NCBI GenBank assembly: GCA_017999985.1
Contig: JAGNKU010000002.1
Span: 310,001-374,000 of the forward strand
DNA from: Phycisphaerae bacterium
GTDB lineage: Bacteria > Planctomycetota > Phycisphaerae > UBA1845 > Fen-1342
Length of the DNA: 64,000 nt
Direction: 5' to 3'
Shown here: piece by piece, positions 4,401 to 31,636 of the stretch
How positions within the stretch are numbered: position 1 is the first letter of the stretch
Layout of the letters: the number at the start of each line of letters is the position of its first letter
Notes under the pieces: generated by a model
What the model was told of the DNA's origin: nothing
Seen by the model: only the letters and a program-made list of their open reading frames with translations
The model's database searches: none
Program-made: the position numbers and the translations under genes

Positions 4401-4626
4401 CGGGGCCGAGTCGCGCCAGCCGCTCGGTCTGGCGGTTGTCGGCGGTCTGCTGTTCTCACAGCTTCTCACCCTCTACGTGACGCCGGTGTTCTTCGTGTAC
4501 ATGGAGAAGCTCCGGATGCTCTTCCACCGCCGGCCCCGCCACGCGGCTGGTGCAGCGACGCCGGTCCTGGCGCCGGTGCCGATCAGCGGCGAAAGCCCCA
4601 GCTTCACGCCGGGCTCGCAGAGCTGA
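1468..4626 (+). CDS. RND efflux pump, HAE1 family inner-membrane permease
   Basis: At 1052 residues this has the normal length of an AcrB/MdtB/MdtC-type proton-driven exporter. It starts at an ATGA overlap with the adaptor. TM1 follows CIRRPVMTTLLMLGLVVFGV, the porter loop follows, and the TM4 proton-relay pair is present in GFVVDDAIVMLENI (about residue 405). The second half repeats the fold, with TM8 around FQASLGNLITLLIVAILVIY and a typical FVGIIMLIGLVKKNGIMMID stretch. PVSDLPNVDYPTIQVSA near the N-terminus is characteristic of the HAE1 branch and closest in feel to MdtB/C. No outer-membrane TolC-like gene follows, so the channel partner must be encoded elsewhere. The substrate cannot be inferred. 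Confidence 0.95.
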   Translation: MNLPELCIRRPVMTTLLMLGLVVFGVMGYSLLPVSDLPNVDYPTIQVSASLPGASPDTMASSVATPLEREFSTIAGIDSMSSTSVLGTAQITLQFNLTRDIDAAAQDVQAAIARAQRRLPPEMPNPPSFRKVNPADHPVLLLALTSPSLPLYTLNEYADTLMAQRISMVNGVAQVMVFGAQKYAVRAQVDPRKLAAHEIGIDEVATAIRNANVNLPTGALYGPQTALTIEATGQLLSASAYRPLIVAYRNGNPVRLEQLGRVIDNVENDKTAAWFVDQRAMVLAIQRQPGTNTVAVVDAVKDLLPSFQSQLPASVSIRELYDRSASIRESVRDVRFTLWLTLALVVMVIFLFLRSLTATAIPSVAMPMSLVGTFAVMYLLGYSLDNLSLMALTLSVGFVVDDAIVMLENIVRHMELGEGTLTAALNGSREIGFTIISMTLSLVAVFIPVLFMGGLVGRLLSEFAVTIGVAILVSGVISLTLTPMLCSRFIRPPSTIRHGHLYAVSERFFRGMLNVYAWGLRGVLRHRRLTMLFSLAVLVATVYLFRKVPQGFFPSEDAGRISAQTEGAEGTSFEAMVRYQQAAAEVVRADPRVEAFMSSVGGGGRAMGSNAGSMFIKLKPRAQRDASVDQVIQDLRPKLAAVPGIRVFLQNPPTIPIGGRMAKSQYQYTLQSPDTNDLYRYAPVLAEKMSDLPGFQDVTTDLQLANPQITVQIDRDKATTLGVTAAQIESALSYAYAAQQISTIYAPNNQYQVILELADEYQANAAALSLLYVRSDRGTLVPLDAVADLVPTVGPLSVNHSGQLPAVTISFNLQPGHALGDAVAAVNDLARETLPADMSTSFQGTAQAFQASLGNLITLLIVAILVIYMVLGILYESFFHPITILSALPFAGFGALATLLIFKVELSLYAFVGIIMLIGLVKKNGIMMIDFALEAQRNEGKPPLDAIYEACLIRFRPIMMTTMAALMGTLPIALGYGAGAESRQPLGLAVVGGLLFSQLLTLYVTPVFFVYMEKLRMLFHRRPRHAAGAATPVLAPVPISGESPSFTPGSQS

Positions 4627-4723
4627 CCGGCTTGCCCCGCCGCGCGTTCCCCTCCCGCCACCCCGATGCGTCGCACATCTGCATCCCGACGCTCCCCAGA
4701 CTGTCGCTGGCTCATCCTCTCAC

Positions 4724-5014
4724 GGAGATTTGAACAGCGACGCCGTCATCGATTTCCTCGACATCAACGCCTTCGTGCTCTACCTGTCGAACTTCCCCGT
4801 GTGGCAAACGACCTACGCTGGTTGCGACGCCGCATGTGGCGACATCGATGGCAACGGCGCGTATCCCTCGTTTGGCGACATCAACCCCTTCGTGACGCTG
4901 TTTCTGACGCACGCGCTGCCGCTGCCGTACGATGGGCGGCAGCGGCTTGAATGGCAGGTCGTCAGGATCGGCGGGGAGCGCAAACCGCCTGAGCGGGGAG
5001 AGTCAATGTTGTGA
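4724..5014 (+). pseudogene. Orphan dockerin-like domain remnant
   Basis: From 4724 an open frame encodes GDLNSDAVIDFLDINAF, then a spacer with NFPVWQTTYAGC, then GDIDGNGAYPSFGDINPFV. These are the two EF-hand-like halves of a planctomycete C-terminal dockerin-type tail. It closely matches the tail of the beta-helix protein ending at 18000 in both DNA and protein, including the unusual NFPVWQTTYAGC spacer. There is no body of a protein in front of it: upstream in frame lies only the end of the RND pump gene. About 30 unrelated residues follow the domain before the stop. I read it as the surviving 3' end of a deleted secreted-protein gene. Confidence 0.7.
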
Positions 5015-5136: not shown

Positions 5137-6840
5137 TCACGGCTGATACGTGAAGTTCACGTGCTGGATCCCGTGGCATGTCAGCGTGCATGAGCCGGTG
5201 TAGCGGCCCGTGTCCACGTAGAACCGCTGCCCGCCGACAATGGCAATGTCAAAGTTGATCAGGTGCCCGTGCTGTGCCGGGCTGCCGCTCACGCCGTGGG
5301 CAGCATGACACGCGCTGCACGGCGTCCGCCCGCGCACGACGTGCCGCTGGTGCAACGCGAAGCTCTCATCGCTGAGAATCGAATTGCGATCGTGACACTG
5401 GTAGCACAGGTCATACGCCTGCGGCGATTCCATCGTGAAGTCGCGCGTCTCGTACCGCGCAACCAGCAGATGCTCATAGCGCGACCCGTGCGGCCCGTCG
5501 ATCTCTGTCCCGCCCGCGCTCACCCCGTCCGGGTTGTTGTGGCAATCCTGGCAATTGATGAACCGCCGCGTTCGCAGCTCCGGCCGCAGGCTCGGCACTT
5601 CGCCGGACTGCCGGCTGGGAAACGCCACCGGATGCGCCGACGCCGCCGTCGGCATGAACTCCCGCCGAACGTTGCCGCCCTCGTCCTGCTGCCGCACGAT
5701 CCGCTGCGTCAGCAGCACGGGACGGTCGCCGTGGCAGCGAAAGCATACTTCGTAGTAAAACCCAGCCTGCTCGACCGTTGCACCCAGCAGGCTCACCCCC
5801 GGCACCGCCCACATCGCCGGCGGCACGATCGGGCCAGCGTTGAGTGTGCCCATTGGCCCCTTCAACAGGTCCTTCGCCGCCGCATGTGGATTGTGGCAAT
5901 CCGTGCATTCGACATAGCGCGCCACGCGCAGCCGATTCTCCGGGGTGGAGCGCAGTTCGCGCAGCTTGTTTACGCGATGCCCGGAACGCTGGTCCAGCAC
6001 CGACAGTACGCTCGGCCCGCTGATGCCGTCGTGGCACGTGATGCACAACTGCGATGGCCGATCGTACAGGAGTTGCTCGCGCCGCGGCGCACTGTGCGAG
6101 AGATGGCATGAACGACACGCGTTGTCCGCCAGCGACCGATACGGCAATTGCTCGCCGTTCGTAACTGTCACGGGCACGGATCGTGGGCTGAGCGCGTGCG
6201 AACCGTGCCACCAGCCGTCCATGTCATGGCACGTCAGGCACAGCGCGCCGTTCCGATCGGTAATCCGCAGAAAATCACCCAGCTCATTGTTGTGCGGATC
6301 GTGGCACGCCGTGCATTCCAGCTCGCCGCGCTCGCCGAGCTTGATCCGGTGGTCCACCAGCTCCGGCGGCCGAATCTGGCGATCGCGGTTGGCCAGCACG
6401 CGGTCGTAGCGGAAGCCGACCGGATGGTCGTCGGACAGGTCGTTGGTCAGGTTCGACGGCCCGGTCGGCATGAACGTATGTGTCATCGGGATCGGCTCGG
6501 TCATGGCCCGGTCGAGGGTCAGGCCGATCGCCAGGCTGCCGTCGTGGCAGCTCAGGCACAGCTTGCTCGCCGGCCCCGGCTGGTCGACGCGCGCGTCGGT
6601 CGTGCTGCTGCGATAGATGCGGTAGTACGTCGTCGGGTTGTGCCGGTTCCACAGCGGCGCCACGGGGCTCGCGTTGTGCGGCACATGGCAGAAGATGCAG
6701 ATTTCGCTTTCATCGAGCGCTCGGACCGGCCCCGGCCCCATCGCCGACAGGTCGTGCTTGGAGTTCATGATACGGTCGTCGGCCCATGCCACCGACACGA
6801 GGCACAACGCGCACGCGAGCGTCCGAACTGCCCGCTTCAT
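5137..6840 (-). CDS. Dodecahaem c-type cytochrome (periplasmic or secreted)
   Basis: A 567-residue cytochrome with a Sec signal (MKRAVRTLACALCLVSVAWA). Eleven CXXCH motifs (CIFCH, CLSCH, CTACH, CLTCH, CRSCH, CITCH, CTDCH, CFRCH, CQDCH, CYQCH, CSACH) and a final CX3CH (CTLTCH) lie between residue 48 and the C-terminus, giving 12 predicted c haems. Several motifs continue as CxxCHDG or CHxPH, the signature of paired-CXXCH domains. The start at 6840 overlaps the stop of the NHL lipoprotein gene as ATGA; a much longer upstream reading frame exists but is only a shadow of that gene. Last gene of a barrel, NHL lipoprotein and cytochrome operon, so it is a good candidate for the electron carrier that enters or meets the outer-membrane barrel, as MtrA does in Shewanella. 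That role is inference. Confidence 0.9.
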   Translation of the reverse strand: MKRAVRTLACALCLVSVAWADDRIMNSKHDLSAMGPGPVRALDESEICIFCHVPHNASPVAPLWNRHNPTTYYRIYRSSTTDARVDQPGPASKLCLSCHDGSLAIGLTLDRAMTEPIPMTHTFMPTGPSNLTNDLSDDHPVGFRYDRVLANRDRQIRPPELVDHRIKLGERGELECTACHDPHNNELGDFLRITDRNGALCLTCHDMDGWWHGSHALSPRSVPVTVTNGEQLPYRSLADNACRSCHLSHSAPRREQLLYDRPSQLCITCHDGISGPSVLSVLDQRSGHRVNKLRELRSTPENRLRVARYVECTDCHNPHAAAKDLLKGPMGTLNAGPIVPPAMWAVPGVSLLGATVEQAGFYYEVCFRCHGDRPVLLTQRIVRQQDEGGNVRREFMPTAASAHPVAFPSRQSGEVPSLRPELRTRRFINCQDCHNNPDGVSAGGTEIDGPHGSRYEHLLVARYETRDFTMESPQAYDLCYQCHDRNSILSDESFALHQRHVVRGRTPCSACHAAHGVSGSPAQHGHLINFDIAIVGGQRFYVDTGRYTGSCTLTCHGIQHVNFTYQP

Positions 6841-7892
6841 GACGCCTTCTCCGACAGATACTGGAAGACCTGCACCCGGCGATTGTAGCCGTCCGCCACC
6901 CAGATGCGATCCTGGGCGTCGATCGTCAGTCCCCCCGGCAGCGCGAACTCGCCCGGCCGCGCCCCCTCCTGCCCAAACGCGAGCAGCAATCGCCCGTCGC
7001 GATCGAAGATCTGGATATTCTCGAACTGGTTGTCCACGACATAGATGTGCTGATCGGAATCCACCGCCACCGCGCGCGGCCGCGCGAAATCGCCAGCGGC
7101 GTCGCCCTTCTGCCCGAAAACACGCACCGGCGTAGCGTCCGCGCCGAAGACCTGCACGCGGAAATTCATGGCATCGGCCACGATGAGACCGATATCGGGT
7201 TGCGCGGCCAGCGCCGTCGGGAAGTTGAACTGTCCGGGCGCGCTGCCGCGTTGTCCGACGCGCTGTTCCAGCGTCCGCCAATCCGTCGTCGCAAAGCATG
7301 CATGCGCCGCCGCGTCCGCCAGCCAGAACCGCCGCCCGCGGGCATCCCAGGCAATCGCCACCGGCGCCGTCAGCTCCGGCCAACGGTGCGTCGCGCGCCA
7401 CCGGCCGTCCAGATCGAACACGTCCACGGCTGCGCGCCCGCGATCTACCACGTACAACTGCGTGCCATCGCCGACGCTCACATCGATCGGAACACGCAAC
7501 GGATCGCTTGGCGACCCGCGAATCGTCGTGTACCGGCGGGCGGCAAGATCGAGGAGGTGCACGCTGCCGAGCCCGGTATCCGCCACGAAAACGCGTTCAC
7601 CGGCCACAGCGACCGCTGCCGGACGCGAGAATTCGGCCTGTGCCCGCGGGCCGGCAAGCGCCGCCTGAAACGCTTCCCAGCCACTCGGCCGCGCGCCAAG
7701 GCTGGCCTCGCCGCGCAGCTCGCCGATGTAGCGGATGCGCGGCCGGTCGGGCGGCGCGGGCCAGACGATCGGCGGTGAGACCGTGGGGAAGATCGGGCCG
7801 GACGGTGCCTGGCAGCCGGCGAGCAGCACGGCGCAGCCCATCGCCGCCAGCAGACCGGCACGCACGACCGCGTTGTGTCGCAGGGCGCTCAT
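6837..7892 (-). CDS. NHL-repeat beta-propeller lipoprotein
   Basis: 351 residues. A lipoprotein signal ends at VLLAGC (Cys27), followed by a six-blade-like NHL propeller. Repeated blades are visible as FSRPAAVAV...VFVADTG, FNFPTALAA...LIVADAMNFRVQVF, FARPRAVAVD...IYVVDNQFENIQIF and FALPGGLTID...IWVADGYNRRVQVF. There is no haem motif. Both ends are translationally coupled: the start overlaps the stop of the barrel gene as ATGA, and its own stop overlaps the start of the 12-haem gene the same way. NHL propellers are protein-protein or ligand platforms rather than redox centres, so a structural or docking role at the outer membrane is likely. Two other NHL proteins in this island are fused directly to haem domains. 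Confidence 0.88.
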   Translation of the reverse strand: MSALRHNAVVRAGLLAAMGCAVLLAGCQAPSGPIFPTVSPPIVWPAPPDRPRIRYIGELRGEASLGARPSGWEAFQAALAGPRAQAEFSRPAAVAVAGERVFVADTGLGSVHLLDLAARRYTTIRGSPSDPLRVPIDVSVGDGTQLYVVDRGRAAVDVFDLDGRWRATHRWPELTAPVAIAWDARGRRFWLADAAAHACFATTDWRTLEQRVGQRGSAPGQFNFPTALAAQPDIGLIVADAMNFRVQVFGADATPVRVFGQKGDAAGDFARPRAVAVDSDQHIYVVDNQFENIQIFDRDGRLLLAFGQEGARPGEFALPGGLTIDAQDRIWVADGYNRRVQVFQYLSEKAS

Positions 7893-10190: not shown

Positions 10191-10868
10191 ATGCGCAGTC
10201 GACCGCCGGGTTCTGTGTCTTGGCTCATCGCCGGCGTGTTGGGTGGCGTCCTCGGCATCGGGGGGTTGCGTGGCGCGCAGGTAGCCGAGCCCGACGCTGG
10301 ACCTGCCGCCACATCCCAGCCGACCACGCAGCCCGGCGAGACCGGGCCGCGCGCCGCACTCATCAGCGGGCTGATCGGTAGCAAGCACGATTTCACCCAG
10401 GGGGGCAAGAGCGGACGCGACCTGTGCCTCCCCTGCCATACCCCCCACCAGGTCGCGCCGCCGGTGCCGCAGCTCGATCGCCGACCGGAGACCACCCTGC
10501 CCCTGCGGCCGTACCAGGGCCTCGGCATCGAACTCACCGGCTGGTCACTCCTCTGCCTCGGCTGCCACGATGGCGTCACCGCACCCGACGTCTACACGTC
10601 CGCCCACGCGATCACCGTCGCCGCCGAACTCGGCCACACCCGCCTCGGCACCCGCGGCCTGCGCAGCCACCCGGTCGGCATCCGCTACCCGTCCGCCGCC
10701 ACAGACTACCAGCCGGCGGCCGCCGTCGAAGCCGCCGGTCTCTGGTTGCCTGACGGCCGCATCCAATGCACAACCTGTCACGACGCTCACAACACGCATC
10801 GATATGGCCGCATGTTGCGCATCAGTAACGAACGCAGTCGCATGTGCATGGCATGCCACCGGCTCTAG
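10191..10868 (+). CDS. Tetrahaem c-type cytochrome
   Basis: 225 residues; the start was placed at ATG 10191 because AGGAG stands 7 bases before it and a signal or anchor segment follows (WLIAGVLGGVLGIGGLRGA). Four CXXCH motifs are present: CLPCH, CLGCH, CTTCH and CMACH. The N-terminal mature part reads SKHDF...CLPCHTPH, very like SKHDL...CIFCHVPH in the divergent 12-haem protein, so the two are probably paralogous paired-CXXCH cytochromes. CLGCHDG and CHDAHNTH continue the same theme. It is probably a small periplasmic shuttle. The last 16 bases overlap the start of the NHL-octahaem gene, so translation is probably coupled. Confidence 0.88.
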   Translation: MRSRPPGSVSWLIAGVLGGVLGIGGLRGAQVAEPDAGPAATSQPTTQPGETGPRAALISGLIGSKHDFTQGGKSGRDLCLPCHTPHQVAPPVPQLDRRPETTLPLRPYQGLGIELTGWSLLCLGCHDGVTAPDVYTSAHAITVAAELGHTRLGTRGLRSHPVGIRYPSAATDYQPAAAVEAAGLWLPDGRIQCTTCHDAHNTHRYGRMLRISNERSRMCMACHRL

Positions 10869-12865
10869 CGTACATCCCGAATCGCCGCTGGCTCGCCGGC
10901 ACCGCGCTGGTCGCCGGCGCCTTGGCTGCATCGTTGCTTCCGAGCTGCGTGACGACCCGGCCCGAACTCACCGCGCAGGCCCCTTCGCCGCTGTACCCGC
11001 CGCCACCGCAGGTTCCACGCGTCGTTGCCCTCGGCACCCTCCGCGGCGCGCCCCCGCCGTCCCGGGCCGAAGTCAATCTGACCCTGTTCCTCTTCGGGGC
11101 CGCCCCGCCGCCGCCTCTCACCATCGCGAACCCCACGGGCCTGGCCGCCCGCGAGCGCGCGGTGCTCATCTGCGATCACGCGCTGAGCACCGTCTTCCGT
11201 TGGGACGCCGACACGAATCACATCTGCGAGGAGTCACTCCGGCCCCCCGCCGAGCATCCGTTCGCCATCGACCTCCTCCCGGACGGCCAGCGCCTGCTCT
11301 GCGATCGTCGCGGCGTGTTGCGAGTCGCCGCGGACGGCGCCGTCCAACAGCGTTACACGATCGAGGGCGGACCATATCGCCCGAGCGGCGTCCTCGCCGT
11401 CGACGAGCATGTCTGGGTCGCCAACGCCGCCGCGGATCGTATCGAGGTCTTCGCGCTCGACAGCGGCGCACACCTGCGCTCCATCGGTCGCTACGGACAA
11501 GGCCCGGCCGAGTTCTCGCTACCGCGCAGTCTGGCCCGCACGCCCGACGGCAACATCTGCATCGTGGATGTCCTGAACAACCGCGTGCAGGTGCTGGGTC
11601 CCGACGGCACGTGGGTTCGTGACGTCGGCGGCCCCGGCGACACCACCGGCCGCTTCGGCCGACCGCGCGACGTAGCCGTGGGCCCCGACGGTGCGATCTT
11701 CGTAAGCGACACTTTCTCGCAACGCGTCCATGCCTTCACCCGCGACGGCCAGCCGTTGCTCGCGTTCGGCGAACCCGGATCGGGACCAGGTGCGCTGGCT
11801 CTGCCCGCCGGCGTCGCTATCAGCGCCCACGCGCCACAAACGGAGACTGCCCCCGCGGTCGAGACCGTGCCGGCCTACTACGTGCTGGTCGCGGAACAGC
11901 TGGATCGTCCCGGTGTGCGGGTCTATGCCTGGCTCGCGGGGAATGACAAAGCCGCCGCCGAAGCCCTGCCCGCCGGCACCGCGACGAACTGGAAGCCCAC
12001 CTACCCGGAATCTGCGGCGATCAACCCGCACTGGGATGCCACGCGGTGCGCGACTTGTCACACGTCCTCCGGCGGCAAGCTCTTCCCCATCGCCCCTGAA
12101 GCGGTGAACGCCCTCTGCATATCCTGCCACGATGGGGTGAAAGCCCCCGCCGATCCACACCCCATCGGTCGCGCCGCGCAGACGGACCTCGTCCAAACGC
12201 CGGACGACTGGCCAACCGTGGACGGTGCGATCGGCTGCCTGACCTGTCATGACATCAAACGCCACTGCGAGCCCACCGCCCAGCGCCCCGCCGTCAACGC
12301 CGTGCTGCTGCGCCACTACGACGCGCAGCAACCCCTCGAATACTGCGGCAACTGCCACACCGCGGACATCGGCGGCCGCTTCAGCCCGCATCAGCAGCGT
12401 GACGCCAGCGGCAAAGTCCGCGAGGACGCCTGCCTGTTCTGCCACACGCGGCGGCCCGAGGTACCAGCGGATGGTCGCCGCCGCTTCGAGCCGCACGTGC
12501 GCGTGGAGTCGTCCGACCTGTGCCTCAACTGCCACGTGCGGCACTGGGACCTCTCGCCGCTCGGCCACGTGGACCGGCCGGTCACGCCGGCGATTCGGCA
12601 GTGGATGCTGATGAATGAAATGAGCGGCCAGGCCAACGTCGGCCGCGCGCAATTAAGGCACATGGCCGACGAGTCCGGACGCGAACCAGCCCGGCTGCCG
12701 CTCGGCAAAAACCGGGTCACGTGCTACACGTGCCATAACCCGCATTACGCCGGCATGTTTCCGCCGGACAGCGAACTGGGTGCGCTCGCCGCCAACCCCG
12801 TGGATCGGAAGGCGGCGCTGCGGACGGATTGGATCGACCTGTGCTCCGAGTGCCATCATCACTAG
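10853..12865 (+). CDS. NHL propeller fused to octahaem cytochrome, lipoprotein
   Basis: 670 residues from ATG 10853 (a GTG at 10844 is an alternative). The signal ends SLLPSC, a slightly unusual lipobox with Cys32. Residues about 90-390 form NHL blades (FSLPRSLARTPDGNICIVD, FGRPRDVAVGPDGAIFVSD). Eight CXXCH motifs fill residues 399 to the end: CATCH, CISCH, CLTCH, CGNCH, CLFCH, CLNCH, CYTCH and CSECH, the last two residues after it being His. The join of a propeller and a haem wire in one chain matches the larger 20-haem protein at 28493-31636, and the propeller alone resembles the lipoprotein of the divergent operon. A surface or outer-membrane-tethered electron carrier is the natural reading. 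Confidence 0.9.
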   Translation: MPPALAYIPNRRWLAGTALVAGALAASLLPSCVTTRPELTAQAPSPLYPPPPQVPRVVALGTLRGAPPPSRAEVNLTLFLFGAAPPPPLTIANPTGLAARERAVLICDHALSTVFRWDADTNHICEESLRPPAEHPFAIDLLPDGQRLLCDRRGVLRVAADGAVQQRYTIEGGPYRPSGVLAVDEHVWVANAAADRIEVFALDSGAHLRSIGRYGQGPAEFSLPRSLARTPDGNICIVDVLNNRVQVLGPDGTWVRDVGGPGDTTGRFGRPRDVAVGPDGAIFVSDTFSQRVHAFTRDGQPLLAFGEPGSGPGALALPAGVAISAHAPQTETAPAVETVPAYYVLVAEQLDRPGVRVYAWLAGNDKAAAEALPAGTATNWKPTYPESAAINPHWDATRCATCHTSSGGKLFPIAPEAVNALCISCHDGVKAPADPHPIGRAAQTDLVQTPDDWPTVDGAIGCLTCHDIKRHCEPTAQRPAVNAVLLRHYDAQQPLEYCGNCHTADIGGRFSPHQQRDASGKVREDACLFCHTRRPEVPADGRRRFEPHVRVESSDLCLNCHVRHWDLSPLGHVDRPVTPAIRQWMLMNEMSGQANVGRAQLRHMADESGREPARLPLGKNRVTCYTCHNPHYAGMFPPDSELGALAANPVDRKAALRTDWIDLCSECHHH

Positions 12866-12887: not shown

Positions 12888-14231
12888 ATGCTCTGGCGCT
12901 CGCTCAGCCTGGATATTCACACCTCTCCCCCGGCCGCCTCGCGAAGAAGCCCCAGCGTCGTCCGAGCGCTCAGCGGCGTGATAGCGGCGGGCACACTCAC
13001 GCTCCTCGCCGGTTGCCCCGGCACCCCACCCGACGACGGCCCGGTCTTCAACAACCCCGAGGACCCCACCAACGGCGGTGCCAGCTACATCGGTGCCGCC
13101 GCGTGCAGCGCCTGCCACCCCGACATCGACGCCGCCACACGCTTGCACGGCCACGCCTCCGCGCTCAAGCGCAGCGAAGGCGCCGCACCCAGCTATCCCA
13201 CCGACGCCACGCGCGCCGGCGTGCCCAGCCCCCCGGACGGATACGCCTGGACTGACGTGAGCTACGTCATCGGCGGCCATGCCAAGGGCGCGATCTTCGT
13301 CGACCGCGACGGCTACGTGCTGACCGACGGCGTCGCCGGCGTGAACACGCAGTGGAACCTCGACTTGCCGCCCAACGGCACAAGCGCTGGCTTCGCGGAG
13401 TACCTGCCCGCGCAAGCCACGCTGCTGCCATTCGCGTACGACTGCTTCCGCTGCCACACGGTCAATCCGCAGCCGCAAACCGCCGACGACCCACGCACCC
13501 AGGACGGGCGCCCCGGCATCGGCGGCACGTGGTCCGAGCCCGGCGTCATGTGCGAAGCCTGCCACGGACCCGGTTCGAAGCACGCGCCTGACCCCGAGGC
13601 CCGCACCATGTTCGTCGATTCGTCGGCCGCGCTATGTGCACGCTGTCACACCGCCGGCGATGACCCCGATGTGATCCTTGCCGCGGACGGCTACGTTAAT
13701 CCGAATACGCAATACGCCGAGTTGCGGGCCAGCGGCGGGCACGCGGACTTCGCGTGCGGCTATTGCCACGACCCGCACGCCTCGACTGCGTACGCTCGTG
13801 CGACCGGCGTTCGCAACGGCTGTGTAGGCTGCCACGCGGATCAGAACCTCGCGTTCCACGATGGTTTCACATTCGTGCGCGGCGACTACGTGGAGGCGTT
13901 GACTTGCGAAAGCTGCCACATGCCGTTCACCGGCCGGAGCAATTCCGTCGCGGGCGCGGACGTGGTCGGCACGCGCGACCCGGGGCGGATGGGCGATGTC
14001 CGCGGGCACATCTTCCGCATCGACACGCAGGCCCCGCGCTATACGCAGATGTTCACACCGGACGGCACACAGGTCATCAAGGACGAGAAAGGCCACGCCG
14101 GCGTCTCGCTCGACTTCGTCTGCCTGCGCTGCCACAACGGCATCGGCAACGCGTTTGTCATCTCCTCCGACGGTGCCGCGGTCATCGCGACGCAAATGCA
14201 CCAAAACGCCGCCGCGTCCGCCAGCGAGTAG
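12888..14231 (+). CDS. Octahaem c-type cytochrome lipoprotein
   Basis: 447 residues. The ATG at 12888 follows AGGAGG and gives a lipoprotein signal ending LTLLAGC (Cys43). Eight CXXCH motifs: CSACH, CFRCH, CEACH, CARCH, CGYCH, CVGCH, CESCH and CLRCH. YIGAAACSACHPDIDAAT followed by an H-rich stretch is typical of the cytochrome c554 family, and SCHMPF after the seventh haem recalls the cytochrome c nitrite reductase and hydroxylamine-oxidoreductase-related octahaem proteins. There is no evident catalytic Tyr cross-link or Lys-ligated haem motif that I can point to, so enzyme or wire remains open. Third gene of the operon, 22 bases after the NHL-octahaem gene. Confidence 0.88.
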   Translation: MLWRSLSLDIHTSPPAASRRSPSVVRALSGVIAAGTLTLLAGCPGTPPDDGPVFNNPEDPTNGGASYIGAAACSACHPDIDAATRLHGHASALKRSEGAAPSYPTDATRAGVPSPPDGYAWTDVSYVIGGHAKGAIFVDRDGYVLTDGVAGVNTQWNLDLPPNGTSAGFAEYLPAQATLLPFAYDCFRCHTVNPQPQTADDPRTQDGRPGIGGTWSEPGVMCEACHGPGSKHAPDPEARTMFVDSSAALCARCHTAGDDPDVILAADGYVNPNTQYAELRASGGHADFACGYCHDPHASTAYARATGVRNGCVGCHADQNLAFHDGFTFVRGDYVEALTCESCHMPFTGRSNSVAGADVVGTRDPGRMGDVRGHIFRIDTQAPRYTQMFTPDGTQVIKDEKGHAGVSLDFVCLRCHNGIGNAFVISSDGAAVIATQMHQNAAASASE

Positions 14232-14403: not shown

Positions 14404-14433
14404 TTGACCCGGGGATGCACCGGACGATATAAA
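14404..14433 (+). promoter_or_regulatory. Sigma-70-like promoter of the beta-helix gene
   Basis: TTGACC (14404-14409), an 18-base spacer and TATAAA (14428-14433) lie 43 bases before the ATG at 14476. The match is among the best in the window and suggests that the beta-helix gene is transcribed independently of the cytochrome operon upstream. Confidence 0.65.
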
Positions 14434-14475
14434 GGTTGTAGGAGGCTCCTGCCGTTTTCTCCGGGGAGAGTGTGC

Positions 14476-17400
14476 ATGCGTCCGATTCGTGTATTCGCGG
14501 GCCTCGTCGGGTTCGTCGTCATCGCCTCTACCTGCTCGGTCGCCGGGGCGACCATCATCTACGTGGACGACGACGCCTCGCCCGGCGGCAACGGACTGAG
14601 TTGGCCGACGGCGTTCCGATTTCTGCAGGATGCGCTTGCGGCGGCGCAGCCCAGCGACGAAATCCGCGTGGCGCAGGGCACGTACTACCCCGATCGCGAC
14701 GCGGCCCACCCGACAGGGACGGCCGACCGCGCGCTGAGCTTCACGCTCAAGGACGGCGTGGGGCTCTACGGCAGCTACGCGGGCTTGGGCGCGACGGATC
14801 CGAACGCGCGCGACATCGCGGCATACGTCACGGTTCTCAGTGGCGACATCGGCGCGCCGGGCGATGATAGCGACAACAGCTACCATGTCGTCCACGGTGG
14901 CAGCACCAGCGCCAGCGCGCTACTCGATGGCTTCACGATTACGGACGGTAACGCGAACGGCGCCGCTCCTCACGACCGTGGTGGCGGCGTCCGCTGCGAC
15001 GACTCCTCCAGCCCCACGCTGGCCAACTGCACGATCGCGGGCAACACCGCCAGCCTCAACGGCGGTGGCGTGTACTGTGGCTACTTCTCACGTCCCACTC
15101 TGACCAACTGTGACATCGTCAACAACGTCGCCGATCATGGCGGTGGCCTGCACTTCTACGACTCTTCCAGTCCCACCCTGGCGGACTGCACAATCGCCGG
15201 CAACCTGGCCGCCGACGGCGGCGGCGTGTATTGTGACCACAGCGACTACCACGCCATACCCACCCTGACCAACTGCACGATCGCACAGAACACGGCTGCC
15301 GGCAGTGGCGGCGGAGTGTACGGCGACGGATACGCCATTCTGGTGCTCACCGCCTGCACAATCATCGGCAACACGGCTGGCGGCGATGGCGCTGGCGTGC
15401 ACGGCGGCTGGTACTCCAGCCTTACGCTGACGAGCTGCAGCATCACAGACAACGCTGCCGGGACGGACGGCGGCGGAGTGTACTGCGGGTCGTACGCCGA
15501 CGCGACGCTGACCGCTTGCACAATCACCGACAACGTGGCCAGCGAGCGCGGCGCAGGTGTATGCTGCCACTGCTTCAGCGCCAAGCTGACGAGTTGCACG
15601 CTTAAGAGCAACGTCGCCGGCGGCAATGGCGGTGGCGTGTACTGCGATGCCTCAAGCTTGACGCTCGTAAATTCCACGCTCGCCGATAACGTCGGTGGCA
15701 ACGGTGGTGGTGTGTACTGCGAGGCAAACCCTACCGCGCGGCTGACCAACTGCACATTCACGGGCAATGCCGCCGCCAGCAAGGGCGGTGGCCTGTACCG
15801 CAGCGCTATCTCCAACCCCATCTTCACCAATTGCATCCTCTGGGCTAACACGCCACAGGCCATCTACCCCCAGGGCGGCAGCATGGTGGTGACGTACTGC
15901 GACGTGCAGGGTGGCTGGAGCGGTACAGGCAATATCGACGCCGATCCAGAATTCGCTTTTCCGGATGATCCGCACCTGCTGAACAGCTCGCCGTGCATCG
16001 ACGCGGGCACGAACAGCCCATCCGGGGGGCTCCCATCCAGTGACGCCGACGGGCTGGCGCGTGTGCTCGACGGAGATGGCGACGGCTCCACGGTCGCGGA
16101 CATGGGCGCCTGCGAGTTCGACCCGGCCACGCCGACGCTGGCCTTGAGTGCTACCAGGCTGACGATCACTGCCCTAACCGGGCAAACCGGGTCGCGGGCG
16201 CTGGAGATCCGCAACAGCACTTGCGGCGCGCTGGCCTGGGAACTGCACTGTGCGGCAGACTGGCTCACGGCCGACCCGGTGGCCGGGGAATCTGCGGGTG
16301 AAGTGGATACGGTCACATTGACAGCCAGCACGACGGATCTGACCCACGGGACTTACGTTACGACCGCGTGGGTGAACGCGGCGCAGGCCCTCAATGCCCC
16401 ACGGGCAGTGACCGTGGTCCTGCGCGTGGCTGGGACACTGCACGTTCCGAGTGAGTATCCGACGATCCAGGCGGCCATCGACGCTGCGACCTTTCCGGGT
16501 GACGAAGTCGTAATCGCCGACGGGGTGTATGCTGGTCCCGGCAACATAAACCTGGACTTTCGCGGCCGCGCGATCCCGCTGCGCTCCGTAAGCGGTGACC
16601 CGGCCCTGTGCACCATTGACTGCGAAGGTAACGGGTGCGGCTTCTACTTCCACAGCGGCGAAGGCCCCGCGTCCAATGTGCAGGGCCTGACCATCCGGAA
16701 CGCGAGCAACAGCGGCGTCTACTGTTCTGGATCAAGCCCAAGGTTGGTCAATTGCCGGATCACCGGCAACACGACCGGCGATAACGGGGGCGGCGTGTAC
16801 TGCACCGACCAGGCCAGCCCGTCGTTGGTCAATTGCACGCTTGCGGGCAACACTTCCATGAACGACGGCGGTGCCCTGTACTGCGGGTACTACTCCAGCC
16901 CCACGCTCATCAATTGCACGCTCGCAAGCAACACAGCCGCCCATCGTGGCGGCGGCCTCTCCTGCCACAACTACTCTAACCCAACACTGACCAACTGCAT
17001 CCTCTGGCCAAACACGCCCGAAGCGATCTACGTTCGCTCAGGCAACCCGGACGTGACCTACTGCAACGTGCAGGGCGGCTTCGTCGGCACAGGCAACATC
17101 AACGCGTCCGCTCTCTTCGTGCGGGACCCGGACCCTGGTCCGGATGGCCAATGGGGCACACTGGACGACGATTACGGCGATCTCCGCTTGACTCATGGAT
17201 CAACCTGTATCGACGCCGGCAACAACTTGGCCGTGCCCAGCACCATCGCCACCGACCTGAGCGGAAACCCGCGGTTCGTCGATGTGACTTGTCGCCCCGA
17301 CTCGGGCAACGGGCCGCCGCCGATCGTGGATCTCGGCGCTTACGAAGCGCCCGACGATCTGCTCATCGACTGCAATGGCAACGGCGTCGATGACTTATGT

Positions 17401-18000
17401 GAGACGCTGGGCGGCACGAGTACCGACTGCAATGTGAACGGCGTGCCCGATGCCTGCGAGATCGCGGGTGGTTCAAGCCCAGACTGCAATGGTAACGCCG
17501 TGCCCGACGAGTGCGATCTCGACGGGGGCACGAGCCTGGACTGCAACTTGAACGGCTATCCGGACGAGTGCGAGCCCGACTGCAACGGCAACGGTCAGGC
17601 CGACGAATGCGACATCTTTCAGGGGGCCAGCTTCGACTGTGACGCTAACGGCGTGCCGGACGAATGCGAGCTGCACCCGGACTGTAACCAGAACTATGTC
17701 CCCGACGAGTGCGACTTGCTGAGCGGCACAAGCATCGACGCGAACGCCAACGGCATCCCCGACGAGTGCGAAATCTGCGCCGGCGACCTGGATTGCAGCG
17801 GGGCCGTCGACTTCGTCGATATCAACGCGTTCGTGCTCTACCTGTCGAACTTCCCCGTGTGGCAGACGACTTACGCCGGCTGTGACGCGGCAAACGGCGA
17901 CCTGGACGGCAACGGCGTCTACCCCGCCCTCGCCGACATCAACGCCTTCGTGACCCTGTTATCCACGCATTCACTGCCGCTGGCGTGCGGCGACCGCTGA
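14476..18000 (+). CDS. Secreted right-handed beta-helix protein with calcium repeats and dockerin tail
   Basis: 1174 residues from ATG 14476, preceded by GGGGAGAG. The signal peptide ends near TCSVAGA. The body has two parallel beta-helix blocks (about 25-560 and 660-950) built of repeats of the type LTNCTIxxNTAxxxGGGVYC, separated by a short beta-sandwich-like linker. About eight DCNxNGxPDECE units follow (about 970-1100), resembling thrombospondin-3 calcium loops. The end is a dockerin-like pair GDLDCSGAVDFVDINAF and GDLDGNGVYPALADINAF. No polysaccharide-lyase catalytic residues can be assigned, so adhesion or surface structure is as likely as enzyme activity. It lies inside the cytochrome island but has its own promoter; a link to electron transfer is unproven. 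Confidence 0.85.
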   Translation: MRPIRVFAGLVGFVVIASTCSVAGATIIYVDDDASPGGNGLSWPTAFRFLQDALAAAQPSDEIRVAQGTYYPDRDAAHPTGTADRALSFTLKDGVGLYGSYAGLGATDPNARDIAAYVTVLSGDIGAPGDDSDNSYHVVHGGSTSASALLDGFTITDGNANGAAPHDRGGGVRCDDSSSPTLANCTIAGNTASLNGGGVYCGYFSRPTLTNCDIVNNVADHGGGLHFYDSSSPTLADCTIAGNLAADGGGVYCDHSDYHAIPTLTNCTIAQNTAAGSGGGVYGDGYAILVLTACTIIGNTAGGDGAGVHGGWYSSLTLTSCSITDNAAGTDGGGVYCGSYADATLTACTITDNVASERGAGVCCHCFSAKLTSCTLKSNVAGGNGGGVYCDASSLTLVNSTLADNVGGNGGGVYCEANPTARLTNCTFTGNAAASKGGGLYRSAISNPIFTNCILWANTPQAIYPQGGSMVVTYCDVQGGWSGTGNIDADPEFAFPDDPHLLNSSPCIDAGTNSPSGGLPSSDADGLARVLDGDGDGSTVADMGACEFDPATPTLALSATRLTITALTGQTGSRALEIRNSTCGALAWELHCAADWLTADPVAGESAGEVDTVTLTASTTDLTHGTYVTTAWVNAAQALNAPRAVTVVLRVAGTLHVPSEYPTIQAAIDAATFPGDEVVIADGVYAGPGNINLDFRGRAIPLRSVSGDPALCTIDCEGNGCGFYFHSGEGPASNVQGLTIRNASNSGVYCSGSSPRLVNCRITGNTTGDNGGGVYCTDQASPSLVNCTLAGNTSMNDGGALYCGYYSSPTLINCTLASNTAAHRGGGLSCHNYSNPTLTNCILWPNTPEAIYVRSGNPDVTYCNVQGGFVGTGNINASALFVRDPDPGPDGQWGTLDDDYGDLRLTHGSTCIDAGNNLAVPSTIATDLSGNPRFVDVTCRPDSGNGPPPIVDLGAYEAPDDLLIDCNGNGVDDLCETLGGTSTDCNVNGVPDACEIAGGSSPDCNGNAVPDECDLDGGTSLDCNLNGYPDECEPDCNGNGQADECDIFQGASFDCDANGVPDECELHPDCNQNYVPDECDLLSGTSIDANANGIPDECEICAGDLDCSGAVDFVDINAFVLYLSNFPVWQTTYAGCDAANGDLDGNGVYPALADINAFVTLLSTHSLPLACGDR

Positions 18001-18021: not shown

Positions 18022-19542
18022 TTACTCCGGCTTCGGCGGCCCCGGCAGCGGATCCTTCAACCCTACGGCCGCCCAGAACGCCGGCACGCCGTGGCAGGCC
18101 TCGCAGCCCAGCGCCATCTCCTTCGGCGCGACCTCGTGGCTGACTTTGAGGTACATGACGGTCTCAGGGAATCCGTAGGTTCCGGTGAACGGAATCCCCG
18201 TGTACGCCGCCCCGTCCGCGAGCGCCAACCCCCAGTCAAACTCGACCCAATACGGATTCGCGCCGCCGGCCGTGCCAAACAGGTGCGGCACGCTCAGCCG
18301 CTTGGCCAACGTGTCCGCCGGCTGCCGGCCCACCATTTTCTTGAACGGGTAGATTTTCGCGTCCGCGTCATCCTTCGTCGCCGCCGGCTCGGCGATGACC
18401 ACCGGGTCTTCCGCGGTACCCGCCACCGTGTACGTATCGCTCACGCCGATGATCATCCGCCGCCACAGGTCGTTGTGCCAGCGATACTCCGGCTGCACGC
18501 CCTTCGCCCACACGAACGTGCCCTTCTGCTTGTCGTACGTCGGCTGGCCGAGTTCATCCGTCGGAATCGGGCTGATGTCCTGGCCGGCCGTATCCCAATA
18601 CCACGCCACCTTCGTCGGCTTGCTGCGCGCGAAGGCCGGAATATGGCACGTTTCGCAGGCTACGCGCGCCAGGTGCGCGTTCAGCAACGGATCGACCGGC
18701 GGGTTCGCCGTGTGCACGTCGGTATCCCCGTGGCAGCGTGTGCACGCCGGCGCCGCCCCGCCCTCGTTCACCGAATGCAGCGCAAAGCCGGCGATGCCGT
18801 GATTCTGTTCCGTATGGCACTCCTGGCACGCGAAATCCAGTCCGCCCATATGCACATCCATCTCGCGCGTCGGGCTGGCCAGATCGGACGACATGTCGCC
18901 ATGCTTCACGTTGTCGCCCCCGCCGGCGTAGAAATGACAGAAGCCGCAGTTGCGCCGCGTCGGCGGCCCCACCTTGTACGCGACCTGCTGCAGTTCGTCG
19001 GGGCCGACCACCGTTACTTGACCTTCGTTGACGAGCGCCGCCGCCCCACCCCCACCGCCATCCGTCGGGTGCTTGGCATACGTACCCGTTGTGTCGTGAC
19101 AGATGAAGCAATCGACCTGCGCCGTGCTCGTGAAGTCGAACGTGTCATCCTTCCAGCCATAGCTCGGATGGCACTGCGCGCAGCGCCCCTCGTTGGACGG
19201 TACCGCGATGCAGAAGTTGTTCAGCAGATCACGCTTGCCGTGCGTTTCCGTTTCGTGCCCGACGATGTTCACGGACGCCCCCGCCCACTGCCAGTGCCCG
19301 CTCTCCAGCAGGTCCGCCGCCACATCCGCATGGCAGATCTGGCATGTCGCCGGCCCCTCGTACCCCCCGGGGACAACCTCCGTCAGGAAGCGTTCGTGAT
19401 CGGTCTTTTCCACCGGCGTATTGCCATCCGGCGGTGAATTCCCGTCCGGCACGCCGTCGTCGGGCGGACACCCCCCCAGTGCCCCCAGCCCCGCGATGCC
19501 GAGCCCCGTCAAGGTGACGATCAGGCAGTATCGCAGAGACAC
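18022..19542 (-). CDS. Octahaem cytochrome, tetrathionate reductase (OTR) family, lipoprotein
   Basis: 506 residues. I use the GTG at 19542, which has GAGGAG 6 bases upstream and a lipoprotein signal ending LGALGGC (Cys25). Eight CXXCH motifs: CQICH, CAQCH, CFICH, CGFCH, CQECH, CTRCH, CETCH and CEACH. The stretch NEGRCAQCHPSYGWKDDTFDF followed by VDCFICHDTTGTYAKHP is the hallmark of octahaem tetrathionate reductase proteins. Characterised members reduce tetrathionate, and in vitro also nitrite and hydroxylamine. The haem spacing and the length fit the family; here the protein is lipid-anchored. It is convergent with the beta-helix gene, separated by only 21 bases, and 191 bases downstream of the OmcA/MtrC-like gene on the same strand. 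Confidence 0.9.
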   Translation of the reverse strand: MSLRYCLIVTLTGLGIAGLGALGGCPPDDGVPDGNSPPDGNTPVEKTDHERFLTEVVPGGYEGPATCQICHADVAADLLESGHWQWAGASVNIVGHETETHGKRDLLNNFCIAVPSNEGRCAQCHPSYGWKDDTFDFTSTAQVDCFICHDTTGTYAKHPTDGGGGGAAALVNEGQVTVVGPDELQQVAYKVGPPTRRNCGFCHFYAGGGDNVKHGDMSSDLASPTREMDVHMGGLDFACQECHTEQNHGIAGFALHSVNEGGAAPACTRCHGDTDVHTANPPVDPLLNAHLARVACETCHIPAFARSKPTKVAWYWDTAGQDISPIPTDELGQPTYDKQKGTFVWAKGVQPEYRWHNDLWRRMIIGVSDTYTVAGTAEDPVVIAEPAATKDDADAKIYPFKKMVGRQPADTLAKRLSVPHLFGTAGGANPYWVEFDWGLALADGAAYTGIPFTGTYGFPETVMYLKVSHEVAPKEMALGCEACHGVPAFWAAVGLKDPLPGPPKPE

Positions 19543-19733
19543 GCACGTCTCCTCATTGAGCTGAGTCAGCGCGAGCCTTCCCGCGGCTGCGCGCGGACAT
19601 GCCACTGGCTGTGGTAGTCCAATCGCCCCCGCAAGTCAACGCCCCCCGTGCCAGCAAGACGCAGGGCAGGGAAGACTCCCTGCCCTGCGGTGATTCCAGG
19701 TGTGCCGTCGCTTCCGTTACGCCCGCCGGTCGA

Positions 19734-22070
19734 CTACGGAACCGCGTGGCTCCGCTCCACCGAGAATGTCTTGCCGTCGCCGTGGCAGACCGCGCAGCCT
19801 TCCTGGCCCACGCCGAGCGTGTTCAGCTCGACGTGCACGGCCGTCGCGGTGGAGTCGTGGCACGACGTGCAGGCGACCTTCCAGATGCTGACGTCGTTGC
19901 GTTCCACCGGTGTCTTCCACGCATCCGTCGCGTGGCACGCCACGCAATTCGCCGGCCCGTTGGGCATCACCGGGGTGAATGCTGTCGAAAAGTCGGCGAC
20001 GTTGTTGCCGAATCCGACGAGGTCGTACACGCCTCCGTCCTGCACGACGCTCAGCGCGCGCGCCGCGTGAATCTTGTGGATCATGATCTTGAAGTCGATC
20101 GAATCCGCCTCGGGCGCCTGCGTCTGACCCTCGGCGACGTTCGGACGATCCTCCGCGCCCGCCGTGTGGCACATTACACAATTCTCAACACTCTTGCGGC
20201 CATTGCCGTGGAAGCGGAGATCGCCGTGGCAGGCGTTGCACTTCGCGTCCGTGACAAAGCCCGGATAGTCCCCCGCCGCGCCGGAGCCGGCGGTGTTGAT
20301 GCGGACGCCAAACAACCCTGGCTCCGACGTCTCGCGATAGGTGGTGTCGCCAAGCGTGAATTGCCGGTACGCATACACCATGATCGTGTAGGACCCCGCC
20401 TTCAGATTCTGGCCGCTCAACTCGCCCCAGCCGTCGGCATAGGTGAACGCCGCCGAGTCGTTCAGTGGCGCCGGATACGTCGCCGGAATCGCCGCCGGGC
20501 TGGTGTACACGAACGGTCCGGTCCCCGTCGCGGGCACGCCACCCGTCATCGTCACCACGCCCTCGTTGGAGGTGGCCTTGATCGCGGCCGTCGAGCCCGC
20601 CACCGGCAGGATCTTCTGGTAGTTCACCGTCGGACCGGCCATGACGAAGTTCACCGACCACAGATCTTCCATGTCAACGGGGTCATCGTTCGCATCGAGT
20701 ACGCGGAACGTGACGATCGGCGCATCTCCGACCGCGAAGAACCCATCGCCGCTGTTGCCCTCCACGGAGTCGATCACAACCTTCAGGCCCAGGATGTTGT
20801 CGGGGTTCGACAGCGGCGGCACGTGCACTACCTCCGCGTCGTACGTCATCCCGGCACCGTGGCACAACGCGCAGGATCCGTCCGCGAACTTGTGCACAAC
20901 GCCAGCCGAGTCCGACGACTTCCCCGGCGGCACGCGGTACGCCACGTTGTTCAGCTGCGTCTGCTTCAACGTGCCAAACAGCTCGTTGTCCTGATCGAGC
21001 ACCGTCCCGCTGTCGAAGTTCAGGTCATCGTGGCAGGTCGTGCAGCGCGCCTGGGTCAGGTTCGCGTCCGCGTAGATCTCGGCGCCCTGCGCCGCGCCGC
21101 CGTGACACACTTGGCAGTTCCGCATCTGCTCGTTGAAGCCGGTGCCGCCCGGCATGAACGGGAACTGCACGTGCGAGAAATCCACCACGTTCCCCTGGAA
21201 TCCGGCCACCTCGTAGAGGTAAGGGTCCGAGCCATCAGCCGTCGCGGCGACCCGGGGCAGATTCGCGCCGGTGTGCAGCTTGTGAATCATCTCGCCGAAT
21301 TCAATCGACTCGGCACCCGCGGAATCGAGCGCACCGGCGGTATGGCAGAGCACGCAGCCGGTCAGGCTGAAGCGGTTGGACCCGTGCACGGTCATCTGCA
21401 CGTGGCAGATGTTGCAGTTGGCCTGCGTCACGAACTCGCGCGCCGTCGGCGTCGCGCCGCCAACCGCGAAGTCGAACGTCGCATCGCCGGCCTTGCGGAC
21501 GCTCTCACCGTCCACGGTGAAGGTCCGCCGTGCCTCGATTCCTACGGTGTAAGTACCGGCGGCGACGGTGCCGCCGCCGCCCGACGGCGCGTTCACGGGC
21601 TTGGCGTACGTGGTGGGCAGATTGCCCAGCGCGTAGGTGTAGCTTCCGTCGGCGTTGGTCGTGACCTTCGTCAGGTCGCCCTCCGGCACGATCACCCGCT
21701 GGTAGCCCTCGGTCGGCCCCGACACGTAGATCGAGAACCGGTCGAGCTCCTCGATCGCAATCGTATTGCTGCTGCCATCCTGGATCGTGAACGTCACGTT
21801 CACCGGACCGCCGAGTTCGACCGGGCTGCTGCCACTCACATCCGTAATGGTGACGACCGTGTCCGGAAGCGTATCTCCGGCTGCGAGGCCCGGATCGCCC
21901 TGCGGACCCGTTGCACCCGTCGGCCCCGCCGGCCCCGTCGGACCCTCCGGACCCGTCGGACCCGTCGGACCCTCCAACAGGCCGCCTGGACAGCCGCCGA
22001 GCATCAGGCTCAGCGCCGCGATGATGCTCAATCCGACGCCTGTACGCAACATTGCCGAGCTGCGCCTCAT
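19734..22070 (-). CDS. OmcA/MtrC-family decahaem c-type cytochrome, lipoprotein
   Basis: 778 residues from ATG 22070, preceded by AGGAG. The lipoprotein signal ends SLMLGGC (Cys27). A short collagen-like run of GPT/GPA triplets follows (about 34-60). Beta-rich domain I leads to a first pentahaem group (CNICH, CVLCH, CQVCH, CTTCH, CALCH, from residue 219). A second beta domain (LGLKVVIDSVEG onward) leads to the second pentahaem group (CNACH, CVMCH, CVACH, CTSCH, CAVCH). This alternation of split beta-barrels and pentahaem domains is the architecture of OmcA and MtrC, surface terminal reductases of Shewanella. It implies a surface-exposed cytochrome and makes an extracellular electron route very likely. 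No MtrA or MtrB is directly beside it; the barrel operon at 5137-10009 may serve. Confidence 0.93.
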   Translation of the reverse strand: MRRSSAMLRTGVGLSIIAALSLMLGGCPGGLLEGPTGPTGPEGPTGPAGPTGATGPQGDPGLAAGDTLPDTVVTITDVSGSSPVELGGPVNVTFTIQDGSSNTIAIEELDRFSIYVSGPTEGYQRVIVPEGDLTKVTTNADGSYTYALGNLPTTYAKPVNAPSGGGGTVAAGTYTVGIEARRTFTVDGESVRKAGDATFDFAVGGATPTAREFVTQANCNICHVQMTVHGSNRFSLTGCVLCHTAGALDSAGAESIEFGEMIHKLHTGANLPRVAATADGSDPYLYEVAGFQGNVVDFSHVQFPFMPGGTGFNEQMRNCQVCHGGAAQGAEIYADANLTQARCTTCHDDLNFDSGTVLDQDNELFGTLKQTQLNNVAYRVPPGKSSDSAGVVHKFADGSCALCHGAGMTYDAEVVHVPPLSNPDNILGLKVVIDSVEGNSGDGFFAVGDAPIVTFRVLDANDDPVDMEDLWSVNFVMAGPTVNYQKILPVAGSTAAIKATSNEGVVTMTGGVPATGTGPFVYTSPAAIPATYPAPLNDSAAFTYADGWGELSGQNLKAGSYTIMVYAYRQFTLGDTTYRETSEPGLFGVRINTAGSGAAGDYPGFVTDAKCNACHGDLRFHGNGRKSVENCVMCHTAGAEDRPNVAEGQTQAPEADSIDFKIMIHKIHAARALSVVQDGGVYDLVGFGNNVADFSTAFTPVMPNGPANCVACHATDAWKTPVERNDVSIWKVACTSCHDSTATAVHVELNTLGVGQEGCAVCHGDGKTFSVERSHAVP

Positions 22071-22272
22071 GGCCGTTCTCCTTCGCGATTTGCGCTCGCA
22101 ACTTCCTGACATGTGCCCGTTGAGTCGTATGTTATCGCGCGAAGGGTGCAATGCAATGCAAACTTGCGCGCTCCGCGCCGGCCACGTCAGTATGCTCCGG
22201 AACGCGCCAGCACCGCAATCCTCCCCAGCGGGGGATCTCCTCCCCCTTAGGGGGGAGCCGACTGCGTACTGT

Positions 22273-28337: not shown

Positions 28338-28425
28338 AGCGATATCCAAACACTCGGAGTTCACGCGGGCAGCAAATGTGTATTCTGCCCGTCTCGGTCG
28401 GTCGCCGCGGCCACGCCACATACTC

Positions 28426-31400: not shown

Positions 31401-31636
31401 AAGGCAAGATCGCCTGCCGCACCTGTCACCTCACGCATGGCCGGCAGACGGCTGCCCCCTTGCCACCGGCGCTCGGCGAAATCGCCAGCCGGGAGCTGCG
31501 CGCCCGCCAGTGGCATATCCGCTCATTCACCGCCAACGCCGTCTGCACGACCTGCCACGGCACCGATGCGCTGCGCCGTTTCATGTACTTTCACGACGCG
31601 GCCCGGCGCGGCGGACCCATCGCCGGTGGCCGCTGA
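28493..31636 (+). CDS. NHL propeller fused to a 20-haem cytochrome
   Basis: 1047 residues from ATG 28493, after GAGG. A signal peptide (AAAFLAITSASNA) leads to an NHL propeller at about residues 35-325 (LHMPTAVAIGPGGDVYVTDG, LYYPFMLALGPTGDVFVSEP, FYRPKGIAIDADGNAWVVDG). Twenty CXXCH motifs follow between residues 339 and 1022, about one per 34 residues, all canonical. Many are in paired-CXXCH form (CLSCHDG, CTKCHDPH, CRSCHDPH, CQVCHTPH). There is no transmembrane segment after the signal, so it should be periplasmic or exported. The domain order equals that of the NHL-octahaem lipoprotein, which suggests duplication with haem-repeat growth. It is divergent from the NapC-type gene. Function is inferred as a long electron wire. 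Confidence 0.9.
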   Translation: MLRPGNLAHVARAAAFLAITSASNAAPPEPPARFVATPVLTFQYDGPPALHMPTAVAIGPGGDVYVTDGALDRIVVFAPDGSLREEFQTVGEETLAQPISLKFDRQGILWIADTGHGRVLARNPDGSLARVIRCPPAPDARHSPDITDVAVNADGTRIWLADNDNHRLLRYDVAGATFSSTGERGQSLGQLYYPFMLALGPTGDVFVSEPVTGRVQIFDAAGRVVRSLGTYGADLGQFYRPKGIAIDADGNAWVVDGTLGVVQVFRPTGSLLGVLCEPGGQPLKLVSPAGIAFDADGNLYVAEVSAHRVHKFALKVDPDVAPPMLPRRTTVTPLQPQACAVCHLEWLEPLARGVTTAIMAPPTTTPEHPVASRPEMCLSCHDGAVVDSRRRIWLEHGHSTDILPPPTMQVPDFLPLVNGRIECRTCHSAHAAGQPMGDIATAVFLRVANRASELCMSCHADKTGGRAAGTHPTGGMPWAIPEALVQAGAQVGPDARELTCQVCHTPHGARHDHLLVMGTESSQLCVTCHDQMRPGMFRDGGPAEHPLSPVVNAEQAAAIRELGTQLGPGEHLICLSCHKLHHGKGERFLLADDLTDGQMCLRCHSDKQSVVATHHDLRTNFPEERNRLGMTAHTGGPCSSCHLFHRYARAPEASELDPGGGKCITCHQPERPAQTKILGSANHSPIGCTKCHDPHTGQFGQFMHDAPYVVCTQCHTDQAGLGGGPHDVTRASPSWPVASTAIGDRCLACHRPHGDDQTGRFRAGLAADAPVGEASCLACHRAVGPDAQAPLALLHPRDVTAQSTATEVPLSTGGERNERGELACRSCHDPHRGRGASEKLVRVAAGDSPQKACTNCHAEMTNLHAIGHAAGVLRAAGFEPGTCGPCHVPHGRRDDIEPRFLWPKKLEFVMDAADPLRVANQHCVACHHTGGPVAPPAIATHPPAEMFNATAPDASGYLPLFNERGEVDPQGKIACRTCHLTHGRQTAAPLPPALGEIASRELRARQWHIRSFTANAVCTTCHGTDALRRFMYFHDAARRGGPIAGGR

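Follow-up and report, generated by a model that had tools for sequence, protein, structure and literature searches.

A planctomycete lipoprotein joining an NHL propeller to an octahaem cytochrome in a porin-cytochrome gene island

In the gene island analysed here, the second NHL propeller lipoprotein (NHL2) of a porin-cytochrome conduit is encoded in one frame with an octahaem cytochrome domain that relatives produce from a separate gene. NHL2 accompanies the conduit and the octahaem an inner-membrane b561/P20 module, and the fusion unites both. With slightly better than even confidence, we lean towards the interpretation that two older EET components, a conduit propeller lipoprotein and an octahaem carrier, have been combined into one protein that is tethered periplasmically at the conduit. 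The window, i.e., the whole stretch of DNA analysed, comprises 64 kb of a 5.23-Mb genome; its relevant features are compiled in Table 1.

Table 1. Features of the conduit island and of the fusion gene, with positions in the window.
Feature	Position	Strand	Basis or remark
12-haem cytochrome	5137-6840	-	11 CxxCH + CTLTCH (CX3CH) = 12; N-terminal ~200 aa OmcE-related
NHL1, free NHL lipoprotein	6837-7892	-	NHL domain; LLAGC lipobox
Outer-membrane beta-barrel candidate, 706 aa	7889-10009	-	position in cassette; relatives in 60/80 named loci
Tetrahaem cytochrome, putative OmcE filament family	10191-10868	+	4 CxxCH; profile match to 7tfs, 9yuq
NHL2-octahaem fusion lipoprotein	10853-12865	+	670 aa, intact ORF, internal stop absent
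Signal peptide + lipobox of fusion	10853-10948	+	predicted lipidated Cys32, SLLPS-C, full site ASLLPS-C32
Six-bladed NHL propeller, residues 57-360	11021-11932	+	Pfam, AlphaFold2, Foldseek; strand 57-63 closes ring
Flexible linker, residues 361-398	11933-12046	+	pLDDT mostly 30-50
Octahaem cytochrome domain	12047-12862	+	8 CxxCH; NPHW motif immediately N-terminal
Second 8-haem lipoprotein gene	12888-14231	+	22 bp past fusion stop; neighbour shared by several relatives
Six-haem + cytochrome b561-type inner-membrane protein (PF01292)	23099-24931	+	co-occurs with octahaem domain
NapC/NirT-type 11-haem inner-membrane cytochrome (PF03264)	26505-28421	-	CxxCH count + Pfam
P20, NHL-cytochrome fusion	28493-31636	+	20 CxxCH; lipobox absent

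Results

A motif scan of the fusion reading frame found exactly eight CxxCH motifs, starting at residues 399, 422, 462, 498, 527, 557, 624 and 664. For the N-terminal half, Pfam returned NHL (E 5e-10) together with the six-bladed propeller family DUF5128, and an AlphaFold2 model of the fusion, built from a 21-row alignment, adopted a six-bladed propeller with pLDDT >90 for most of residues ~90-360. Foldseek searches with this propeller gave the NHL domains of Thin, TRIM2, TRIM3 and TRIM71 as best PDB matches, followed by Pizza6 designs, such that repeat content and predicted fold both identify the N-terminal half as an NHL-repeat six-bladed propeller. The C-terminal half was matched by general multihaem models of Pfam only, and in an NCBIfam search with the fusion no family passed the cut-off. 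The haem domain was poorly modelled within the full fusion model, as expected for a domain modelled without haem and with few sequences; modelled alone, it reached a pLDDT of 52, and a fold claim for the octahaem domain was dropped. Its NPHW motif is kept in free octahaem proteins of other taxa. In 21/21 fused homologues, 47-60 aa separate the first haem motif from the point where the propeller profile ends, the sequence of the mid-part being variable.

The signal region, a helix of residues 11-28 in the AlphaFold2 model, leads into a lipobox that is atypical in having Pro at position -2. A lipobox-like site is present in 51 of 59 NHL2 homologues, where it is mostly canonical (e.g., IAGC, AAGC). 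Inner-membrane retention in the Lol pathway is usually read from residue +2, which is Val in the fusion; by this rule it carries no inner-membrane retention signal. Reading frame, haem motifs, the lipobox-like site at Cys32, and the NHL Pfam match plus model thus confirm the sequence-only reading of this gene as a lipobox-bearing NHL-multihaem fusion with eight haems, and the domain order it had proposed to be shared with the 20-haem protein P20, NHL first and haems after, was found as well.

The cassette is divergent, with barrel candidate, NHL1 and 12-haem genes on the minus strand and tetrahaem and fusion genes on the plus strand, the last 16 bp of the tetrahaem gene also forming the first 16 bp of the fusion gene. 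The tetrahaem protein matches Geobacter OmcE (7tfs) over its whole length (E 9e-37), including all four haem sites, and likewise 9yuq, a solved multihaem protein with 16 chains (E 2e-38). By this kinship, it is placed in the OmcE filament family. Kinship with 7tfs and 9yuq extends to the N-terminal ~200 residues of the 12-haem protein, as if this cytochrome had begun from a filament-type subunit. Further multihaem proteins encoded in the same island are a ten-haem protein (19734-22151, minus strand; MtrC/MtrF-like Pfam model, E 2e-46) and an eight-haem protein (18022-19605, minus strand; Cytochrome_cB PF11783, E 1e-47). Two ORFs on the plus strand, 4550-5014 and 14404-18000, share near-identical, dockerin- or sorting-like ends (DINAFVLYLSNFPVWQTTYAGCDAA...), the shorter of the two possibly being a fragment.

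An alignment of the 12-haem protein was scanned against 84,980 species genomes, yielding 80 named loci that were then searched with profiles built in this analysis; many of these loci end at contig ends. A core consisting of barrel, OmcE-like tetrahaem protein, two or more NHL proteins and the 12-haem cytochrome was present in 41 of the 80 named loci, distributed over ten phyla that include Planctomycetota, Pseudomonadota, Verrucomicrobiota, Bacteroidota, Nitrospirota and Thermodesulfobacteriota, and many of the named loci without the full core are cut by contig ends. In the named loci of Acidobacteriota, the barrel profile detected none. Small multihaem ORFs that separate NHL2 from the barrel in other taxa had been considered as prolyl isomerases, an idea that was abandoned as 4/4 examined gave cytochrome Pfam matches only; a plasmid search returned weak propeller matches and nothing stronger. 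In the whole genome, five NHL loci exceed the Pfam cut-off, three of them inside this island. Together with the conservation of the core, this supports the earlier proposal that the propeller is a standard part of the machine, and it is conserved position, rather than mutual similarity, that marks the propellers as parts of one machine.

The idea of three matching propellers, in NHL1, the fusion and P20, held up in that all three belong to one machine according to the cassette, but not as a statement about one family. The fusion propeller scored a median of 99 bits over 288 aa against NHL1, 79 bits over 129 aa against generic NHL proteins from its own order, and 60-63 bits against the P20 propeller. 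NHL2 is hence closer to NHL1 than to the generic set, whereas its similarity to P20 does not exceed that to the generic set, and the bit scores do not support one tight family of three. A propeller tree of 101 rows placed NHL1, NHL2 and P20 separately, each with members from several phyla, indicating separate old lineages; the rows of NHL2 fused to octahaem and the fused P20 rows each formed one clade. When three long rows were removed, the conduit propellers grouped apart from the generic set with a support of 100, a split that says little because the generic set is itself one tight clade. A scenario in which a single ancestral fusion was duplicated to give both was rejected: forcing a joint clade lowered lnL by 106 (AU p 2e-7). 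Moreover, separate genes encode the P20 propeller and the P20 cytochrome in eight named loci (L060, L062, L063, L092, L135, L126, L128, L140). From the separate lineages, the rejected joint clade and the split P20 pairs, it follows that the 8-haem and 20-haem fusions arose independently, two different propellers having been joined to two different cytochromes.

This bears on a possible role of the propellers as assembly or secretion factors for filament or conduit, with the fusion coupling octahaem folding or export to assembly. NHL genes adjoin the OmcE-family gene and the barrel in ten phyla, as would be anticipated for such factors. The Geobacter osc cluster also contains beta-propeller proteins. 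According to PMC13194489, where the finding is cited, osc encodes factors for folding and secretion of OmcS. Two independent fusions of different propellers to different cytochromes, however, are more readily explained if the propeller is a permanent structural partner than if it only helps transiently, and we consider an assembly function unlikely.

With the fusion as query, some match was obtained in 60 of 61 genomes, and among the 60 relatives, 27, all from families f1 and f7, were matched over both halves. The fusion is not a chance product of the window, as these homologues of both halves share 41-63% identity with it and retain the haem motifs. In genomes of families f3, f4, f5 and f8 that have the octahaem (G028, G030, G037, G045, G048, G050, G057, G060), and likewise at L081, L092 and L135 among the named loci, the two halves are neighbouring genes, which in the split genomes are adjacent or overlapping. 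Most split NHL2 proteins can be recognised as lipoproteins; a lipobox scan of the split octahaem proteins was negative, and their N termini are plain and signal-like. Free octahaem units also occur in Gammaproteobacteria and other Pseudomonadota (L117, L128, L133). Fused rows formed a single clade both in the octahaem tree (91/79), with the free proteobacterial octahaems outside, and in the propeller tree (support 95; 93 in a second tree), the simplest reading being that one fusion event took place and that the split state is ancestral.

Adjacent or overlapping genes need few mutations to become fused, and the stop between neighbours could simply have been lost and the product fixed by chance, making the fusion mechanistically meaningless. 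This we hold to be quite improbable, given that 28 genomes, the window included, keep frame, lipobox and a linker of 47-60 aa, that the octahaem's own signal peptide is gone, and that the same kind of fusion arose separately for P20. That relatives make the two halves as neighbouring genes suggests direct contact between NHL2 and octahaem when the machine is at work.

Some relatives show further rearrangements. A 22-haem protein of a proteobacterium (L107:18470-21091, plus strand) starts with the octahaem unit, which is followed by what looks by eye like a second octahaem copy, with the NPHW start repeated. A fused homologue in L042 (10228-12378, plus strand) shares 62% identity with the window protein in the propeller and 42% in the octahaem, compared with 65-71% octahaem identity in its close relatives, which points to a possible domain replacement. 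Two f7 genomes have two clusters each (L051 and L052; L053 and L075), one holding the conduit with an unfused NHL2 and the other, elsewhere in the genome, the fusion with an additional tetrahaem gene, next to the genes for the 20-haem and 11-haem proteins.

Among the 61 genomes, 43 encode the 12-haem conduit protein, 35 with and 8 without octahaem. P20 was found in 34/35 octahaem-bearing conduit genomes versus 0/8 of those without (Fisher p 6e-8), and the b561 protein in 32/35 versus 0/8 (p 1e-6), these p-values overstating the evidence as the genomes are related and the counts non-independent. In two gammaproteobacterial loci (L117, L128), a free octahaem gene has the 12-haem gene on one side and the b561 and P20 genes on the other. 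Counting against the association, only 6/15 of the named loci with a b561 gene or P20 propeller show the octahaem, many loci being cut by contig ends.

The co-occurrence pattern also weighs on the main rival interpretation, in which the fusion is exposed at the cell surface, its propeller capping the conduit from outside and its octahaem passing electrons to an OmcE-like filament or to minerals. Such a location would be in line with the 16-bp overlap between the fusion gene and a gene of the OmcE family, with the adjacency of NHL2 and tetrahaem genes in many phyla, and with the Uet tetrahaem UetA being called extracellular in PMC10734462. On the other hand, the octahaem tracks the b561/P20 module, conduit and tetrahaem gene occur without it in 8 genomes, and the free octahaem proteins lack a lipobox. 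On this evidence, we regard surface exposure as somewhat unlikely.

Discussion

In the interpretation we favour, the N-terminal half of the fusion is NHL2, one of two propeller lipoproteins in a Uet/OmcE-type porin-cytochrome conduit, and the C-terminal half is an octahaem that is separately secreted elsewhere and belongs with the b561/six-haem module and the P20 pair. Lipid anchor and propeller would fix the protein to the conduit in the outer membrane, while a linker that is both long and flexible may free the octahaem arm to relay electrons between periplasmic and inner-membrane cytochromes and the conduit. The octahaem would work as a tethered electron carrier, more likely on the periplasmic side, since its free counterparts bear no lipobox and follow the inner-membrane module. 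Some outer-membrane lipoproteins do face outward. Invariant non-motif histidines number five among 37 octahaem rows (mostly planctomycete) and four among ten more diverse rows; four to five such residues for eight haems would count against the octahaem as a tethered carrier.

Docking as the task of the propeller is made more likely by the two independent NHL-cytochrome gene fusions. As a tentative generalisation, for which our confidence stays below even, propeller lipoproteins could be general docking subunits of multihaem conduits, and Planctomycetes may have twice hard-wired cytochromes (8- and 20-haem) to them, creating tethered arms that bridge the periplasm to the conduit. NHL proteins have repeatedly been listed beside outer-membrane cytochromes, their role being left unexplained in the literature covered. 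The two natural fusions and their split relatives now name candidate binding pairs, namely NHL2 with the octahaem and the P20 propeller with its cytochrome, and they link an OmcE-like gene, the conduit and an inner-membrane module as one system whose core is found in many phyla.

That NHL proteins are encoded beside outer-membrane cytochromes is already known (PMC9769857, PMC12016550, PMC10734462). The closest parallel is the Uet (undecahaem electron transfer) conduit of Tenderiales and Gallionella, which, as described in PMC10734462, includes the undecahaem UetJ, the tetrahaem UetA, the barrel UetC, the NHL proteins UetH and UetI, the trihaem UetDEG and the prolyl isomerase UetB. Both systems combine an 11/12-haem cytochrome, a tetrahaem cytochrome and two NHL proteins in one cluster with a beta-barrel porin, here a candidate, a likeness judged by motif count, domain and context. 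By motif count and context, the 12-haem cytochrome with its 12 haem motifs is the counterpart of UetJ and the tetrahaem protein with its four CxxCH that of UetA; by domain and context, NHL1 and the NHL2 part of the fusion correspond to UetH/UetI. The position of UetC is filled by the barrel candidate, which is conserved in the cassette but gave no match in a Pfam scan. Unlike in Uet, NHL2 is joined here to an octahaem cytochrome, and counterparts of UetDEG and UetB were not found in the island, where no ORF has three haems and no prolyl isomerase was seen among the genes scanned with Pfam.

Turning to filament cytochromes, relatives of Geobacter OmcE (7tfs) are encoded by the tetrahaem gene that overlaps the fusion and by the N terminus of the 12-haem gene, whereas the fusion protein itself has no OmcE resemblance. 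The Geobacter osc cluster is similar in grouping a filament cytochrome gene with proposed export and folding helpers, but is centred on the hexahaem OmcS rather than on OmcE, a comparison by description (PMC13194489). In Desulfovibrio ferrophilus and Geoalkalibacter, NHL-repeat proteins are encoded beside outer-membrane cytochromes and their genes adjoin multihaem cytochrome genes as in our island (PMC9769857, PMC12016550); there, NHL protein and cytochrome are separate genes, and the accessible parts of these papers describe no fusion. A search of the literature covered for an NHL-cytochrome fusion likewise turned up no description, which does not prove its absence. Seen against these systems, the NHL2-octahaem fusion is a variation on already known NHL/cytochrome conduits, with one of their propellers joined to a haem-bearing arm.
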